Part shown: positions 1,168 through 7,859 of the stretch, piece after piece | How the letters are laid out: each line of letters begins with the position of its first letter | How positions within the stretch are numbered: position 1 is the first letter of the stretch | From: Methanolobus sediminis | GTDB taxonomy: Archaea > Halobacteriota > Methanosarcinia > Methanosarcinales > Methanosarcinaceae | Direction: 5' to 3' | Length of the DNA stretch: 64,000 nt | NCBI RefSeq assembly: GCF_031312595.1 | Contig: NZ_CP133592.1 | Span: 1,364,001-1,428,000 of the forward strand | Position numbers and translations under genes: made by a program | Notes under the pieces: generated by a model | What the model was told of the DNA's origin: nothing | Database searches by the model: none | Seen by the model: the letters and a program-made list of their open reading frames with translations, nothing else

Positions 1168-2706
1168 TTAGTCTTCTACAGGAACAGGTTCTGGTTCAAA
1201 TATTCCATGCTCCCTGTGTACTGCACTAACAGCAGGCATTCTGTTCCTTCTCTCACGCTGGGAGTATATCCAGAGTGGGATAAAGAGACAGAGCATGGAG
1301 AATCCTACACCAGTTGTTGCCCATCCAAGTTCAAGACTGTTAAGGTAGATGATACCTATCAGGAAGAATGGTGTGTTCAGTATAGTAGTTGCCAGAGCAA
1401 CACCCTTCCATCCTCTTGGAGCCTTGAAAGGTCTGTCCAGCTTTGAAAGTTCAGGGTCGTTCCTGACCTTTACATAGGTGTAAAGACTGATACCATTGGC
1501 ACAGATGTAACCGATGGCAGAGGCTGCAAGGATAGCTGTTGGCGTTCCAAGAAGAATGAGACACATGTTGAAAGCTGCATCAGCTATCATTGCGTTCATT
1601 GGATGGCCGTGCTTGTTCAACTTACTCAAAAATACTGGCAGGTTGCCTTCAACTGACATTGAATATATGGAACGTGCAGATGAAAGGAAAGCTGTCTGGA
1701 TAATGAGAAGCATTGCACCTATCAGCATTATAATTGAAATGGAAGCACCAATAGGACCAAGTGCCATGTTTGCCAGTGGAAGCATTGGTGAGATAGGTTC
1801 TGCAAGAACCCCGTCAACTCCAAGAGCACCGATTACGGATGTCTGTACGAGTACATAAAGAACAAGGCATATTGCTCCACAAACAAGAAGTGCCTTTGGA
1901 ATATCGGAATTTGGCTTCTTGTATTCAGGGCCATAGATAGCAGCGGTTTCCCATGCAGCAGCACTCCATTCAGCCATTGCAAGAAGTCCGAGAAGGATCA
2001 GGATGTGTTCCCAGTCCCAGCTCCAGTCTGTTGGGAACCATGAACTTGTGATGTTTGACATCTGGAAATCGCCTGTGAAGAATGGTGCAATAGTGATTAC
2101 CAGAAGAGGCACCAGGGAAATAGCAGCTAAGATCATTCCAGCGGCTGCTCCGTTCTTGAGTCCCTTTGAATTAATGATCGCAAGGGTACCGAAAATGAAA
2201 CCTCCTACTACAAGTGCCATAAGTGTTGAGTTTATTCCTGCAATTGCAGGGACCATTCCCTGAAGATAATCTGAGATCAGAATTGCATAGATAGCAAGGA
2301 CAGGACTCCAGCCGAACCAGTAGCTCCAGGCACTGAAACCGCCTATGAACTTACCTAATTTGAACTTTCCTTTGTTGTTCTTGTCCTTATCTGAACCAAA
2401 GACAGTTTGGGTATAACCTGGAAGACCCGAAGCTTTTGGGAAGACAGTTGCAAGTTCTCCGAACGCGAAATTCTGCAAAAATCCAAGAAGAACCGTTGCT
2501 CCCCAGATAACTATTGCAAAAGACCACACGTAACTTGTAAGATATCCGATGGAAGGAAGGATAAGCAAAGGAACACCAAGTGCTATTGCAAGACCCTGTT
2601 TCCAGTCAATTGACCTCTCAAGTTCCTGTGGGTCACATATATTCTTAGCACACTGGGCACCGTGTTCCCAGTCTATTCCCGGGGATGAATCTGTTTTGTT
2701 GCTCAT
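1168..2706 (-). CDS. APC-superfamily permease, probable methylamine permease
   Basis: A 512-residue multi-pass membrane protein of the amino acid/polyamine/organocation type, with about 12 hydrophobic segments and a hydrophilic N-terminus. Methanosarcina genes annotated as methylamine permeases (mtmP, mttP) are of this general class. Divergence from pylS and the amber-containing leader ORF directly upstream support a methylamine substrate, but substrate choice is inference. Start: I choose ATG at 2706 (MSNKTDSS...) rather than the longer ATG at 2742. It overlaps the TGA of the upstream mini-ORF as ATGA, the classic arrangement for translational coupling, and a GGGGTG stretch lies 5 bases before it. 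The stop is TAA. Confidence 0.8.
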   Translation of the reverse strand: MSNKTDSSPGIDWEHGAQCAKNICDPQELERSIDWKQGLAIALGVPLLILPSIGYLTSYVWSFAIVIWGATVLLGFLQNFAFGELATVFPKASGLPGYTQTVFGSDKDKNNKGKFKLGKFIGGFSAWSYWFGWSPVLAIYAILISDYLQGMVPAIAGINSTLMALVVGGFIFGTLAIINSKGLKNGAAAGMILAAISLVPLLVITIAPFFTGDFQMSNITSSWFPTDWSWDWEHILILLGLLAMAEWSAAAWETAAIYGPEYKKPNSDIPKALLVCGAICLVLYVLVQTSVIGALGVDGVLAEPISPMLPLANMALGPIGASISIIMLIGAMLLIIQTAFLSSARSIYSMSVEGNLPVFLSKLNKHGHPMNAMIADAAFNMCLILLGTPTAILAASAIGYICANGISLYTYVKVRNDPELSKLDRPFKAPRGWKGVALATTILNTPFFLIGIIYLNSLELGWATTGVGFSMLCLFIPLWIYSQRERRNRMPAVSAVHREHGIFEPEPVPVED

Positions 2707-2852
2707 GCACACACCCCGGGATACTCCGCACCTGTGTTGCATAAGAAGGGCATACCCATCGGGTTGCCGTTTTCAAACTATATTCCATTTACAAGACAAT
2801 TCTCAAGGACATCATAGTCCATGAATTCCTTCATAGTTGTTTCTTTGCTCAT
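2703..2852 (-). CDS. Amber-containing 49-codon leader ORF, candidate pyrrolysine leader peptide
   Basis: From ATG at 2852 this reads 24 codons (MSKETTMKEFMDYDVLENCL, then VNGI), an in-frame TAG at 2780-2778, then 24 more codons (FENGNPMGMPFLCNTGAEYP, then GVCA) to TGA at 2705-2703. That TGA overlaps the permease ATG. A strong Shine-Dalgarno site (GAGGT) sits 6 to 7 bases before the ATG. The residues round the TAG, VNGI-[UAG]-FENGNPMGMP, resemble the pyrrolysine site of dimethylamine methyltransferase MtbB as I remember it (VDGI-O-VGVGDPLGMP). A stable hairpin follows the TAG. If UAG is read as pyrrolysine, ribosomes reach the permease start; if not, they stop about 70 bases short. It could instead be an mtbB remnant. 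Translation is not proven. Confidence 0.55.
2749..2768 (-). promoter_or_regulatory. Hairpin 9 nt downstream of leader UAG (PYLIS-like position)
   Basis: On the minus strand GGCA-ACCC, loop GAT, GGGT-A-TGCC forms an 8-bp stem with one bulged A. It begins nine bases after the in-frame UAG, roughly where a stem-loop called PYLIS lies after the UAG of mtmB. It may favour UAG readthrough or simply pause ribosomes. Confidence 0.45.
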
Positions 2853-2905
2853 AATTCTACCTCAGAATCTATGATTGTATAATCAATTAGCATTCAATAA
2901 CGCTA

Positions 2906-2915
2906 GATATATAAG
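2906..2915 (-). promoter_or_regulatory. Candidate TATA box for leader ORF and permease
   Basis: The minus-strand sequence CTTATATATC lies about 55 bases upstream of the leader ORF ATG, fitting an archaeal TATA box with a short 5' leader. A second AT-rich candidate (minus strand AAAATATAAG) lies at 2934-2943. Confidence 0.4.
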
Positions 2916-3107: not shown

Positions 3108-3134
3108 TAAGATTACAACGCCGTTGTAATCTTA
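3108..3134. promoter_or_regulatory. Perfect 27-bp palindrome, candidate operator
   Basis: TAAGATTACAACG at 3108-3120 is followed by one central C and its exact reverse complement at 3122-3134. It sits between the divergent promoters of the permease leader and the pyl operon and is not followed by a T-run in the usual terminator form. It most likely binds a dimeric regulator or forms a hairpin in a transcript. The FilR1/Msr-type regulator at 282 is a possible partner by proximity only. Confidence 0.5.
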
Positions 3135-3185
3135 AGTAAGGTTTAGGATAAATAGCCACAAACGATTCTACTTCTTAGTAGTAAT

Positions 3186-3413: not shown

Positions 3414-4870
<1,457 letters not shown>

Positions 4871-4879
4871 GGTGGAACC

Positions 4880-5971
4880 ATGATAAAGGATATTAATTAC
4901 TGGGATCTTGACATTATTGCTGAAAATATAATAAACGGACAGAAGCTCACCGACGACAACCTAAGAGAGCTCCTTTCCCTGACAGAAGAAGAAGACATCG
5001 AAAAGCTGCAATACGTTGCAAGAAAAGTGAAGGAACGCTATTTCGGGAACAGGGTATTCCTCTACAGCTTTGTTTACTTCTCAACCCACTGCAAGAACAA
5101 CTGTGCTTTCTGTTACTACAACAGATGCAACGAAATACAGCGCTATCGCCTTGATCTGGAAGAGATCCGCAGCATAGCAAGAGCCATCAAGAACGAAACC
5201 ATCCACATGGTAGACCTTACCATGGGAGAGGACCCTTATTTCCATAATAATCCTGAAAAGTTCGTTGATGTTGTAAAAGCAGTAAAGGAAGAAACAGGTC
5301 TTCCAATAATGATCTCTCCTGGAGTTATGGATGACAGAACTCTCAGCAGGCTGCATGAAAGCGGTGCTAATTTCCTTGCACTCTATCAGGAAACACATGA
5401 TGAAGAACTCTACCGGAAACTGAGGGTAGGACAATCCTTTGATGAAAGGAACCATGCCAGGGAATTTGCCAGAACCAACGGTTACTGTGTTGAAGACGGA
5501 ATCCTCACAGGTGTTGGAAACGATATCGAATCAACCATAATTTCACTTAGAGGAATGCAAAAGGGAAATCCTGACATGGTTCGTGTCATGACCTTTGTTC
5601 CACAGGAAGGAACACCTCTTGAACTGGTGACACAGCAGTCCAGCCTTGCGGAGCTGAAGATTATCTCAGTCCTGAGACTGATGTTCCCTGACAAACTCAT
5701 ACCTGCATCCCTTGACCTTGAAGGAATCGATGGCATGGTAGACCGCCTGAATGCAGGTGCAAATGTTGTCACATCTATAATATCCGCAGATTCCTCACTT
5801 GAAGGCGTTGTCAACTATGACAGGGAACTTGAGGAAAGGGACAGGGACTCAAAGAGCGTTATCAAGCGCCTGAAAAGCATGGGTATGGAACCTGCAAGCC
5901 AGGCTGAGTTTAACAGGATACTCGAAAAGCAGCATGTAACTCCTGTAAGAATCCCGGTGGCCGCACTATGA
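4880..5971 (+). CDS. pylB: 3-methylornithine synthase (lysine mutase), radical SAM
   Basis: PylB converts L-lysine to (3R)-3-methyl-D-ornithine, the first step of pyrrolysine synthesis. The radical-SAM cluster motif CKNNCAFC has Cys at 71, 75 and 78. The remainder follows the TIM-barrel pattern of the PylB/BioB-like family, with 363 residues being the normal length. A GAGGTGG Shine-Dalgarno lies just before the ATG. The stop overlaps the pylC start (ATGA), so pylB and pylC are probably translationally coupled. Confidence 0.97.
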   Translation: MIKDINYWDLDIIAENIINGQKLTDDNLRELLSLTEEEDIEKLQYVARKVKERYFGNRVFLYSFVYFSTHCKNNCAFCYYNRCNEIQRYRLDLEEIRSIARAIKNETIHMVDLTMGEDPYFHNNPEKFVDVVKAVKEETGLPIMISPGVMDDRTLSRLHESGANFLALYQETHDEELYRKLRVGQSFDERNHAREFARTNGYCVEDGILTGVGNDIESTIISLRGMQKGNPDMVRVMTFVPQEGTPLELVTQQSSLAELKIISVLRLMFPDKLIPASLDLEGIDGMVDRLNAGANVVTSIISADSSLEGVVNYDRELEERDRDSKSVIKRLKSMGMEPASQAEFNRILEKQHVTPVRIPVAAL

Positions 5972-7071
5972 CATCAATATGCATAATAGGTGGCAAGCTC
6001 CAGGGTTTTGAGTTCACTTATCTTGCACACAAGGCAGGTATGAATGTAGTGCTTGTGGACCGCAGGGAAAAGCCTCTCATACGCAAGGTTGTTGACAGTT
6101 TTCAATGCTTTGATGTTGTCAAAGAACCTGAAAAACTGATAGAACTCTCAGAAAATGTGGATGCTATCATCCCTGTGAATGAGAACCTTGAGACAATAGA
6201 GTTCCTCAGGGATATAAAGGACAAGCTTGCATGTCCTGTGCTATTTGATTTTGATGCCTATCATATCAGTATGGACAAGAAGCGATCTAAGGACTATTTT
6301 AAGTCAATCAATATACCAACTCCTGCGGACAAGCCAACAAGCCCGCCATATTTCGTGAAGCCTCCATGTGAGAGCAGCAGCATCGGGACATCTATAATAT
6401 ATGATGACGAGGGTCTGGAAGGACTTGACCCTTCAATGCTCATCGAGGAATATGTTGAGGGTGATGTGATTTCCCTTGAAGTGATTGGTGATGGAACTCA
6501 CTTTTCAGTTGTAAAGGAAACGAAGATCCATATCGATGGCACCTACGACTGCCACATGGTTACTCCTATTGATAATTATCCTGAGTTCAGGAAAATAACC
6601 TATGAGCTCGCAAAGAACCTCAATCTCCGGGGAATAATGGACGTTGAAGCAATAGACAGCTCCAGGGGACTCAAGGTACTGGAAATAGATGCAAGGTTCC
6701 CAAGCCAGACTCCCACAGCTGTTTATCATTCTACCGGGGTCAATCTTGTGGAGATGCTCATGCAGGCATTTCTTGGAGAAGTTCAGGAAACTGACATGGT
6801 TCCTGAAACTAACTATTGCATTTACGAGCACCTTTTACTTGAAAATGGAGAACTGAAACCTGTTGGAGAGCATGTGCTCTCACAGGGAGACGAATATGTG
6901 CAGTTCCATGAATCAGAAGGACTTGAGATATTCGAATCCAAGGGAGAGAACAAGAACAGTGTTTTCACCCTGATAAGCTACGGAACTGACAGGGAAGAGA
7001 CTGAAAAAATAAGACAGAGCGGAATGGAAATGATCATCGGTCATTTCCTGAACAGAGAACAGGAGGAATAA
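5968..7071 (+). CDS. pylC: 3-methylornithine--L-lysine ligase, ATP-grasp
   Basis: PylC joins 3-methyl-D-ornithine to the epsilon-amino group of L-lysine with ATP. The N-terminus has a Rossmann-like preATP-grasp fold (SICIIGGKLQGFE), followed by the ATP-grasp core with a FVKPPCESSSIG nucleotide loop and a metal-binding segment near KVLEIDARFPSQTPT. The length of 367 is typical. It overlaps pylB by 4 bases and ends 2 bases before the ATG of pylD, in one operon. Confidence 0.96.
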   Translation: MTSICIIGGKLQGFEFTYLAHKAGMNVVLVDRREKPLIRKVVDSFQCFDVVKEPEKLIELSENVDAIIPVNENLETIEFLRDIKDKLACPVLFDFDAYHISMDKKRSKDYFKSINIPTPADKPTSPPYFVKPPCESSSIGTSIIYDDEGLEGLDPSMLIEEYVEGDVISLEVIGDGTHFSVVKETKIHIDGTYDCHMVTPIDNYPEFRKITYELAKNLNLRGIMDVEAIDSSRGLKVLEIDARFPSQTPTAVYHSTGVNLVEMLMQAFLGEVQETDMVPETNYCIYEHLLLENGELKPVGEHVLSQGDEYVQFHESEGLEIFESKGENKNSVFTLISYGTDREETEKIRQSGMEMIIGHFLNREQEE

Positions 7072-7073
7072 AA

Positions 7074-7859
7074 ATGGCACTTTTAACACCGGAAGACCTT
7101 GAGAACCTTTCAATGCAACTTGAAGAGAACGATGAGATTGCAAAAAGGGTTACTGGTCTTGATATCAGAGGTATATGCGAAGCATTATACGGTACAGAAC
7201 CCGGTACTGAGAAAGTAGGAATTATTCCAATCACTGCTGGTAATGGTGTCATCAGTAATTTCACATCTTCACTCCTGTTCATAGTCCGGTATTTCGGCTT
7301 TGAAGGTTTCATAACAGAACACCCTGATGTCACAGGCTATTATGAAGCAGTTTCTCAGGGTGCTGATATTATAATGATGGCAGATGACCACATCTTCACC
7401 GCCCACAACCTGAGAAATGAAAAGATAGTTAGCAATCATGTTGCAACTGGTGTGGTATATGCTGATATCGCTTCCAGATACAAGGAAGCCACATCAAAAG
7501 ATATACTTGTAATCGGACTCGGAAGAGTAGGTTATGCAGGTGCCTGCCATCTTGTGAATAAGGGATTCAATGTCTATGCATGCGATCCGAACAAGGAATT
7601 CCTGCAGAAGGCTGTGAATGAACTGGGAATCAATCCCTATTGCAGCGATGACAGGAAGAAGTTTTCAATGGTCTTTGAGGCAACACCAAATGCAAACACC
7701 ATATCCGAAGGTATGATCGAGGAAAGGTGTCTTGTCTCAACCCCTGGAATTCCCTGCGGACTTCCACCTGAAATCGGACAGAAGTATCATGTTGATCTTG
7801 TAATGGAGCCTCTTGTAATTGGAGTGGCTTCAATGCTGTATTCTGTGATCCAGAATTAA
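7074..7859 (+). CDS. pylD: Pyrrolysine synthase (dehydrogenase)
   Basis: PylD oxidises 3-methylornithinyl-lysine so that it cyclises to pyrrolysine. The 261-residue protein has an N-terminal helical half and a C-terminal Rossmann domain with the dinucleotide motif VIGLGRVGYAG at about residues 144-154. AGGAGGAA lies just upstream of the ATG at 7074 and overlaps the pylC stop. A 44-base gap separates it from ramA, with its own weak Shine-Dalgarno (GGAGTGCTGAG). Confidence 0.96.
   Translation: MALLTPEDLENLSMQLEENDEIAKRVTGLDIRGICEALYGTEPGTEKVGIIPITAGNGVISNFTSSLLFIVRYFGFEGFITEHPDVTGYYEAVSQGADIIMMADDHIFTAHNLRNEKIVSNHVATGVVYADIASRYKEATSKDILVIGLGRVGYAGACHLVNKGFNVYACDPNKEFLQKAVNELGINPYCSDDRKKFSMVFEATPNANTISEGMIEERCLVSTPGIPCGLPPEIGQKYHVDLVMEPLVIGVASMLYSVIQN

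Follow-up and report, generated by a model that had tools for sequence, protein, structure and literature searches.

A UAG-containing leader ORF reduced from an mtbC-mtbB operon ahead of a Methanolobus amine permease gene, a candidate pyrrolysine-dependent coupling leader

The leader, the permease, and their genomic neighborhood

Why does a short open reading frame (ORF) with an in-frame UAG lie directly ahead of an amine permease gene in Methanolobus sediminis? The window, that is, the whole stretch of 64,000 nucleotides analyzed here, encodes on its minus strand an APC-type amine permease of 512 aa (1168..2706; Pfam AA_permease_2, 1.5e-45), which matches the NCBIfam TMAO permease model at 6.5e-69, below that model's cut-off, and whose orthologues adjoin mtbB in relatives. 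The ORF ahead of it (2703..2852, same strand) has 49 codons; read from 2852 to 2703, it consists of ATG (2852-2850) and 23 codons, TAG, 24 codons, and TGA (2705-2703), and its translation with TAG as O is MSKETTMKEFMDYDVLENCLVNGI-O-FENGNPMGMPFLCNTGAEYPGVCA. The TAG (codon 25, 2778..2780) is predicted to encode pyrrolysine and is invariant within the invariant block GGAATATAG in seven species. Upstream, on the same strand, are a GAGGT Shine-Dalgarno sequence (2859..2863), whose AGGT stands at equal distance in all seven leaders and which aligns with the GGAGGT of mtbC, and a TATA-like box, TTATATAT (2908..2915), matching the consensus at 7 of 8 positions at -63; such boxes lie at about -50 in most relatives and are weak in genome G001. 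A hairpin, GGCAACCCGAUGGGUAUGCC (2749..2768, minus strand), starts 9 nt after the UAG, and the leader TGA overlaps the permease ATG (2706-2704) as ATGA. All of these elements (the 49-codon ORF, GAGGT, TAG at codon 25, TGA/ATG overlap, and hairpin) had been named in an earlier sequence-only reading and were found again, on the minus strand, which that reading had left unsaid.

The permease has its own Shine-Dalgarno-like sequence, GGGGTG (2712..2717, minus strand), inside the leader, and its GGTG is conserved in 7/7 species. A permease start further upstream, at 2742 (MQHRCGVSRGVCMSNK...), was rejected because in relatives the frame is closed across this extension; open permease frames of 514-515 aa occur in G001, G006, and G024. 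The ATGA overlap follows in part from the fact that the permease begins with Met-Ser.

The divergent neighbors are pylS, pylB, pylC, and pylD (3509..7859, plus strand); PylS, PylB, and PylD are NCBIfam equivalogs above cut-off, and pylC was assigned by position and length. Additionally, ramA lies on this divergent side, and mtbA, mtmB, and mtmC are located upstream of the window. ARAGORN identified no tRNA within the window; pylT was found at G000:C1:1356610-1356681, 7.4 kb left of window position 1 and ~11 kb from pylS, past mtmC-mtmB-mtbA, and in Methanosarcina it adjoins pylS. Inverted repeats are present between pylS and the permease gene at 3110-3140 and 3455-3480 (GATTACAACGCCGTTGTAATC and ATTCCTAGGATTTTAGGAAT). 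The first recurs upstream of mtbC in M. profundi and may be an operator common to pylS and the permease unit.

Orthologous permeases (identity ~88% or higher) were found in ten Methanolobus genomes, and seven of these carry the leader: the window genome, G001, G006, G019, G022 (M. vulcani B1d), G024, and G025 (M. vulcani PL 12/M). The seven leaders are alike in having 49 codons, an ATG preceded by AGGT, TAG at codon 25, a TGA overlapping the permease ATG, and the same distance from the UAG to that ATG; G024 also has an open, longer alternative that begins with GTG. When 112 genomes of the family were scanned with a spacing-bound pattern, which misses leaders of differing spacing or motif, only these seven were retrieved (0/105 others), and reversed controls gave nothing. 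The three permease carriers without the leader are G016 (M. profundi), which has a full mtbC-mtbB directly ahead of the permease gene, and G004 and G014, which have neither leader nor mtbC-mtbB there.

Origin from a reduced mtbC-mtbB operon

At its pyrrolysine site, the MtbB of Methanolobus reads VDGI-O-VGVGDPMGMPISH; the context given in the sequence-only reading proved correct when checked against MtbB from the same genus. The 20 residues around each TAG were scored (BLOSUM62, ungapped) against this active-site context. The leader in the window scored +37, and 1000 further TAG contexts from the two window strands gave a mean of -26.3 (SD 9.0) and a maximum of +5, indicating that the resemblance to MtbB is not due to chance. 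All seven leaders match the MtbB context V-x-GI-O-x-G-x-G-x-P-x-GMP, with scores of 37-60 against the null maximum of 5.

The Rfam family PYLIS_2 (RF02509), the mtbB pyrrolysine insertion sequence, matches window positions 2780-2703 with 22.5 bits (E 0.0095 for the stretch). No leader reaches the curated gathering threshold of 36 bits (22.5 bits for the window leader and 21.7-27 for those of four relatives), and these sub-threshold matches begin exactly at the UAG in five of the seven leaders; the full mtbB of M. profundi scores 108 bits. The first PYLIS_2 stem-loop follows shortly after the UAG in all seven leaders, and the second stem has been lost. The leader hairpin is the apical part of PYLIS_2 stem I and forms an 8-bp stem with one bulge; it pairs in 7/7 leaders, in a register that differs between the two leader groups. 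The mtbB hairpin itself (GGCGACCCnnUGGGUAUGCC, 9 nt after the UAG) has -10.7 kcal/mol in Methanolobus and some Methanosarcinaceae and is weaker, -4 to -8 kcal/mol, in others. A search of the leader against Pfam returned no domain match at E 10, and with this result and its 49 codons the leader was ruled out as a full-length MtbB, a TIM-barrel enzyme of ~467 aa. On these comparisons, the leader is a descendant of both MtbB and PYLIS_2 and an above-threshold member of neither.

The gene order in M. profundi is pylS, mtbC-mtbB-permease, and an HTH (FilR1-type) regulator. The window, G001, and G024 have leader-permease in place of mtbC-mtbB-permease, between pylS and the regulator. G025 likewise retains pylS beside leader-permease, and in G006, G019, and G022 the leader-permease unit is followed by a second mtbC-mtbB-permease operon. 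The leader occupies the same syntenic place, ahead of the same permease, as the enzyme genes in mtbC-mtbB-permease operons of Methanosarcinaceae such as M. profundi.

Comparison of the leader regions with the M. profundi locus by blastn yielded three colinear matches, whose offsets do not differ between the two leader groups. Codons 1-14 (2811..2852, minus strand) match the mtbC start in three species, those of the MSKETT type (E 2e-5 to 5e-4), this match being undetectable in the other four; ungapped, it covers 35-36 of 53 positions, compared with a shuffle maximum of 29-34. Codons about 15-37 (2742..2810, minus strand) match the MtbB pyrrolysine site in 7/7 species (E 1e-9 to 5e-5), so that the UAG site, ~17-23 codons around it, and the first hairpin derive from mtbB. 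The 3' end of the leader (2703..2722, minus strand) corresponds to the mtbB/permease intergenic junction, a colinear match of the relatives to M. profundi found in 7/7 and, in several, covering just the portion at the permease start.

Because of the synteny, the colinear matches, and the PYLIS_2 match from the UAG, the leader can be regarded as a fused mtbC-mtbB remnant. At the sequence level, it is shown to join in one frame the start of mtbC to the MtbB UAG site and hairpin and, beyond these, to the mtbB/permease junction, nearly all else of mtbC and mtbB having been deleted. The sequence-only reading had offered an mtbB remnant as an alternative; it was right as to origin, which is here made more exact as mtbC plus mtbB, fused in frame, at the operon position of M. 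profundi. Unlike mtbB, the leader has 49 rather than ~467 codons, no enzyme domain, and a start taken from mtbC. Unlike the mtbC-mtbB-permease operons, its locus has no enzyme genes and its ATGA overlap is new, mtbB in M. profundi ending ~28 nt ahead of a TTG start of the permease.

The leader ATG sits where mtbC has ATT behind GGAGGT. In four Methanolobus species, this ATT follows the mtbC GGAGGT by 6 nt (ISKEEMFKEL...; L128, M. profundi, at ~8950 on the reverse strand, and L122, L125, and L126), and the nearest downstream ATG lies ~18 nt past the Shine-Dalgarno sequence; AUU is possibly the start codon of mtbC. As a separate observation, the mtbB UAG motif appears doubled in L027 (G013:C149) at 796 and 988, 192 nt apart across a run of N, which is likely an assembly artefact.

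That both leader groups share the same deletion offsets speaks for a single origin of the leader. The permease tree did not resolve whether the carriers form a single clade (AU p = 0.139), and one species marker is mildly against it (p = 0.034); given that neither test supports a single clade, the leader may have been lost in some species or passed between them.

Constraint on the leader and competing explanations

What is kept in the leader bears on whether the remnant has acquired a role. Permease fourfold sites in the seven species served as the neutral yardstick (tree length 1.17, 42.5% invariant). No indel separates any of the 21 leader pairs, whereas the 150 nt ahead of the leader show 3.3 per pair, and none of the seven leaders has gained a stop, a stop-free state expected in 1.5% (before the UAG) and 6.6% (after the UAG) of column shuffles. 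The codon-substitution score of the leader exceeds that of column shuffles (p = 0.004). Within the leader, codons 23-35, comprising the UAG and hairpin core, have 29 of 39 sites invariant (P = 5.5e-5 against fourfold sites), and codons 2-22 (29/63) and 36-43 (6/24) look neutral; the three nucleotides of the UAG would be kept by chance alone in ~8% of cases under neutrality (0.425 cubed). The dN/dS of the leader is 0.2-0.7 within groups and 0.4-0.95 between them. After the UAG the coding signal is weak (codon score p = 0.04-0.08), codons 36-49 giving none by this score across the seven leaders, and translation past the UAG is only suggested. Third positions of the core are conserved as well (9/13), so that RNA and peptide constraint are inseparable there, and since the hairpin comes from mtbB, its presence does not require selection for a new role. 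The frame and the UAG-hairpin unit thus appear to be kept and the peptide largely not, a pattern that fits a role for translation of the leader better than it fits a functional peptide or a remnant without function. The sequence-only reading had proposed that pyrrolysine supply gates permease translation, an idea to be abandoned if relatives had not conserved the frame or had not conserved the UAG; UAG, frame, hairpin, and ATGA overlap are kept in seven species, the idea survived, and such a gate is plausible in view of the constraint pattern.

The explanation we favor, with a rough probability of 0.45, is that the leader is an exapted pyrrolysine-dependent translational-coupling leader. As in regulatory leader ORFs or uORFs, its position, frame, and control codon are conserved in seven species, and given UAG read-through, the ATGA found in 7/7 would place terminating ribosomes on the permease start, as in translational coupling. 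Counting against it are the permease's own Shine-Dalgarno sequence, the leaderless orthologues in G004 and G014, and the lack of a conserved fold that would hide the start. The weak coding signal after the UAG, the partly incidental ATGA overlap, the inherited hairpin, the ~8% chance of keeping the UAG under neutrality, and carriers for which neither tree test gave a single clade also speak against it.

The strongest competitor, although itself unlikely, is that the leader is a neutral or slowly decaying remnant, a chance leftover of the mtbC-mtbB deletion, with the permease using its own Shine-Dalgarno sequence and with loss already complete in G004 and G014. The demonstrated remnant origin, a substitution rate over most of the leader equal to that at permease fourfold sites, the between-group dN/dS values, and the presence of that Shine-Dalgarno sequence are all as expected from such decay. 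Yet seven species have remained free of indels and stops next to a 150-nt segment with several indels per pair, the UAG-hairpin core is conserved far above neutral, and ATG, Shine-Dalgarno sequence, and length are identical across two divergent leader groups, none of which decay would predict.

Constitutive coupling, in which the leader would be a ribosome loading site with its UAG always read efficiently and no regulation by pyrrolysine, has a rather small chance of being correct. It accounts for the holding of frame and start/stop spacing while the peptide drifts, and it is in line with the UAG read-through of up to 97% reported for Pyl methyltransferases (PMC8211752). However, of the nine codons one base away from TAG, eight are sense codons and would serve coupling better, and the TAG is nevertheless invariant in 7/7.

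Improbable, in turn, is a functional pyrrolysine micropeptide that would act by mimicry of the MtbB active site, for example as an amine sensor or a permease partner. The motif GIO...G.PMG.P is retained, and Lys3, Glu9, Asp12, Val15, Cys19, and Thr40 are invariant outside it; but residues outside the motif mostly vary freely, the Pfam search found no relative, substrate binding by an active-site strand that lacks the TIM barrel is unlikely, and the conserved third positions of the core point to RNA as much as to peptide. The poorest candidate is a block kept at the DNA or RNA level with the UAG incidental, GGAATATAG being the permease TATA box or the hairpin a protein site: AATATA resembles a TATA element and the hairpin falls within the top 4-9% of synonymous choices for stability, but most species have a better TATA-like element upstream of the leader, the same sequence arose as coding in mtbB, and maintenance of the reading frame would be left unexplained.

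A possible pyrrolysine-responsive control of permease synthesis

Under the favored coupling leader, an operon wreck would have become a UAG-gated leader and permease synthesis would depend on decoding of UAG as pyrrolysine, making it a natural pyrrolysine-responsive switch; we advance this tentatively, and every step beyond frame conservation is inferred. Ribosomes would load at the leader start, and at the UAG, Pyl-tRNA(Pyl) would compete with release factor, the hairpin 9 nt downstream sitting at the mRNA entry and aiding UAG reading. Read-through would carry ribosomes to the UGA, and they would then start on the permease AUG that it overlaps. When pyrrolysine is short, termination would occur at the UAG, ~75 nt upstream of the permease start, and permease output would drop to the level that its own Shine-Dalgarno sequence supports. 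Methylamine uptake would thus be tuned to the capacity for making Pyl-containing methyltransferases, a tuning that the ancestral operon may have given automatically.

The presence of a permease Shine-Dalgarno sequence and the lack of a conserved hiding fold make such tuning likelier than on/off control. A fold sequestering that Shine-Dalgarno sequence can be drawn in the window sequence and is absent in relatives, and was rejected as a conserved element. Similarly, no conserved mutually exclusive structures or hidden start, as transcription attenuation would involve, were found among the leaders.

The proposed competition at the UAG is real in the sense that UAG is still a stop in ~12% of ORFs: TAG ends 17 of the 145 ORFs counted here, and a genome-wide 'Pyl code' that would make any UAG trivial was rejected on the same count. 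As cited in PMC8211752, Acetohalobium reads UAG as Pyl only while growing on trimethylamine. Replacement of the mtmB PYLIS led to less full-length and more amber-truncated product (PMC2933860). The UAG motif with its hairpin (mtbB, PYLIS_2), substrate-dependent UAG decoding, and the effect of PYLIS on read-through and termination are therefore already known. As for the leader itself, the sequence-only reading had believed it undescribed, and a full-text literature search, with subscription literature mostly outside its scope, found no published pyrrolysine-codon leader ORF.

In ribosome-dependent leader peptides and uORFs such as trp-type attenuators and macrolide leaders, a regulated gene is likewise preceded by a short ORF whose decoding-sensitive codon has a fixed place. 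Unlike these, the control codon here is UAG/pyrrolysine, there are no conserved alternative hairpins or hidden start, and the effect is proposed to act through coupling. In E. coli selAB, a SECIS-like RNA ahead of the genes binds SelB, so that a gene is regulated by the machinery that decodes a recoded stop, as is proposed for the leader; that element, however, is untranslated, whereas the leader is an ORF holding the recoded codon itself.

To our knowledge, pyrrolysine is known almost solely as a catalytic residue in methylamine methyltransferases. The leader locus shows cleanly how an enzyme operon can be cut down to its control elements, and its 150-nt element makes the split of UAG between stop and pyrrolysine testable. 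If the favored explanation is true, a UAG mini-ORF that yields no enzyme and delivers ribosomes to the permease start would be a natural pyrrolysine sensor, and pyrrolysine would be a regulatory signal in these archaea, beyond its role as a catalytic residue.
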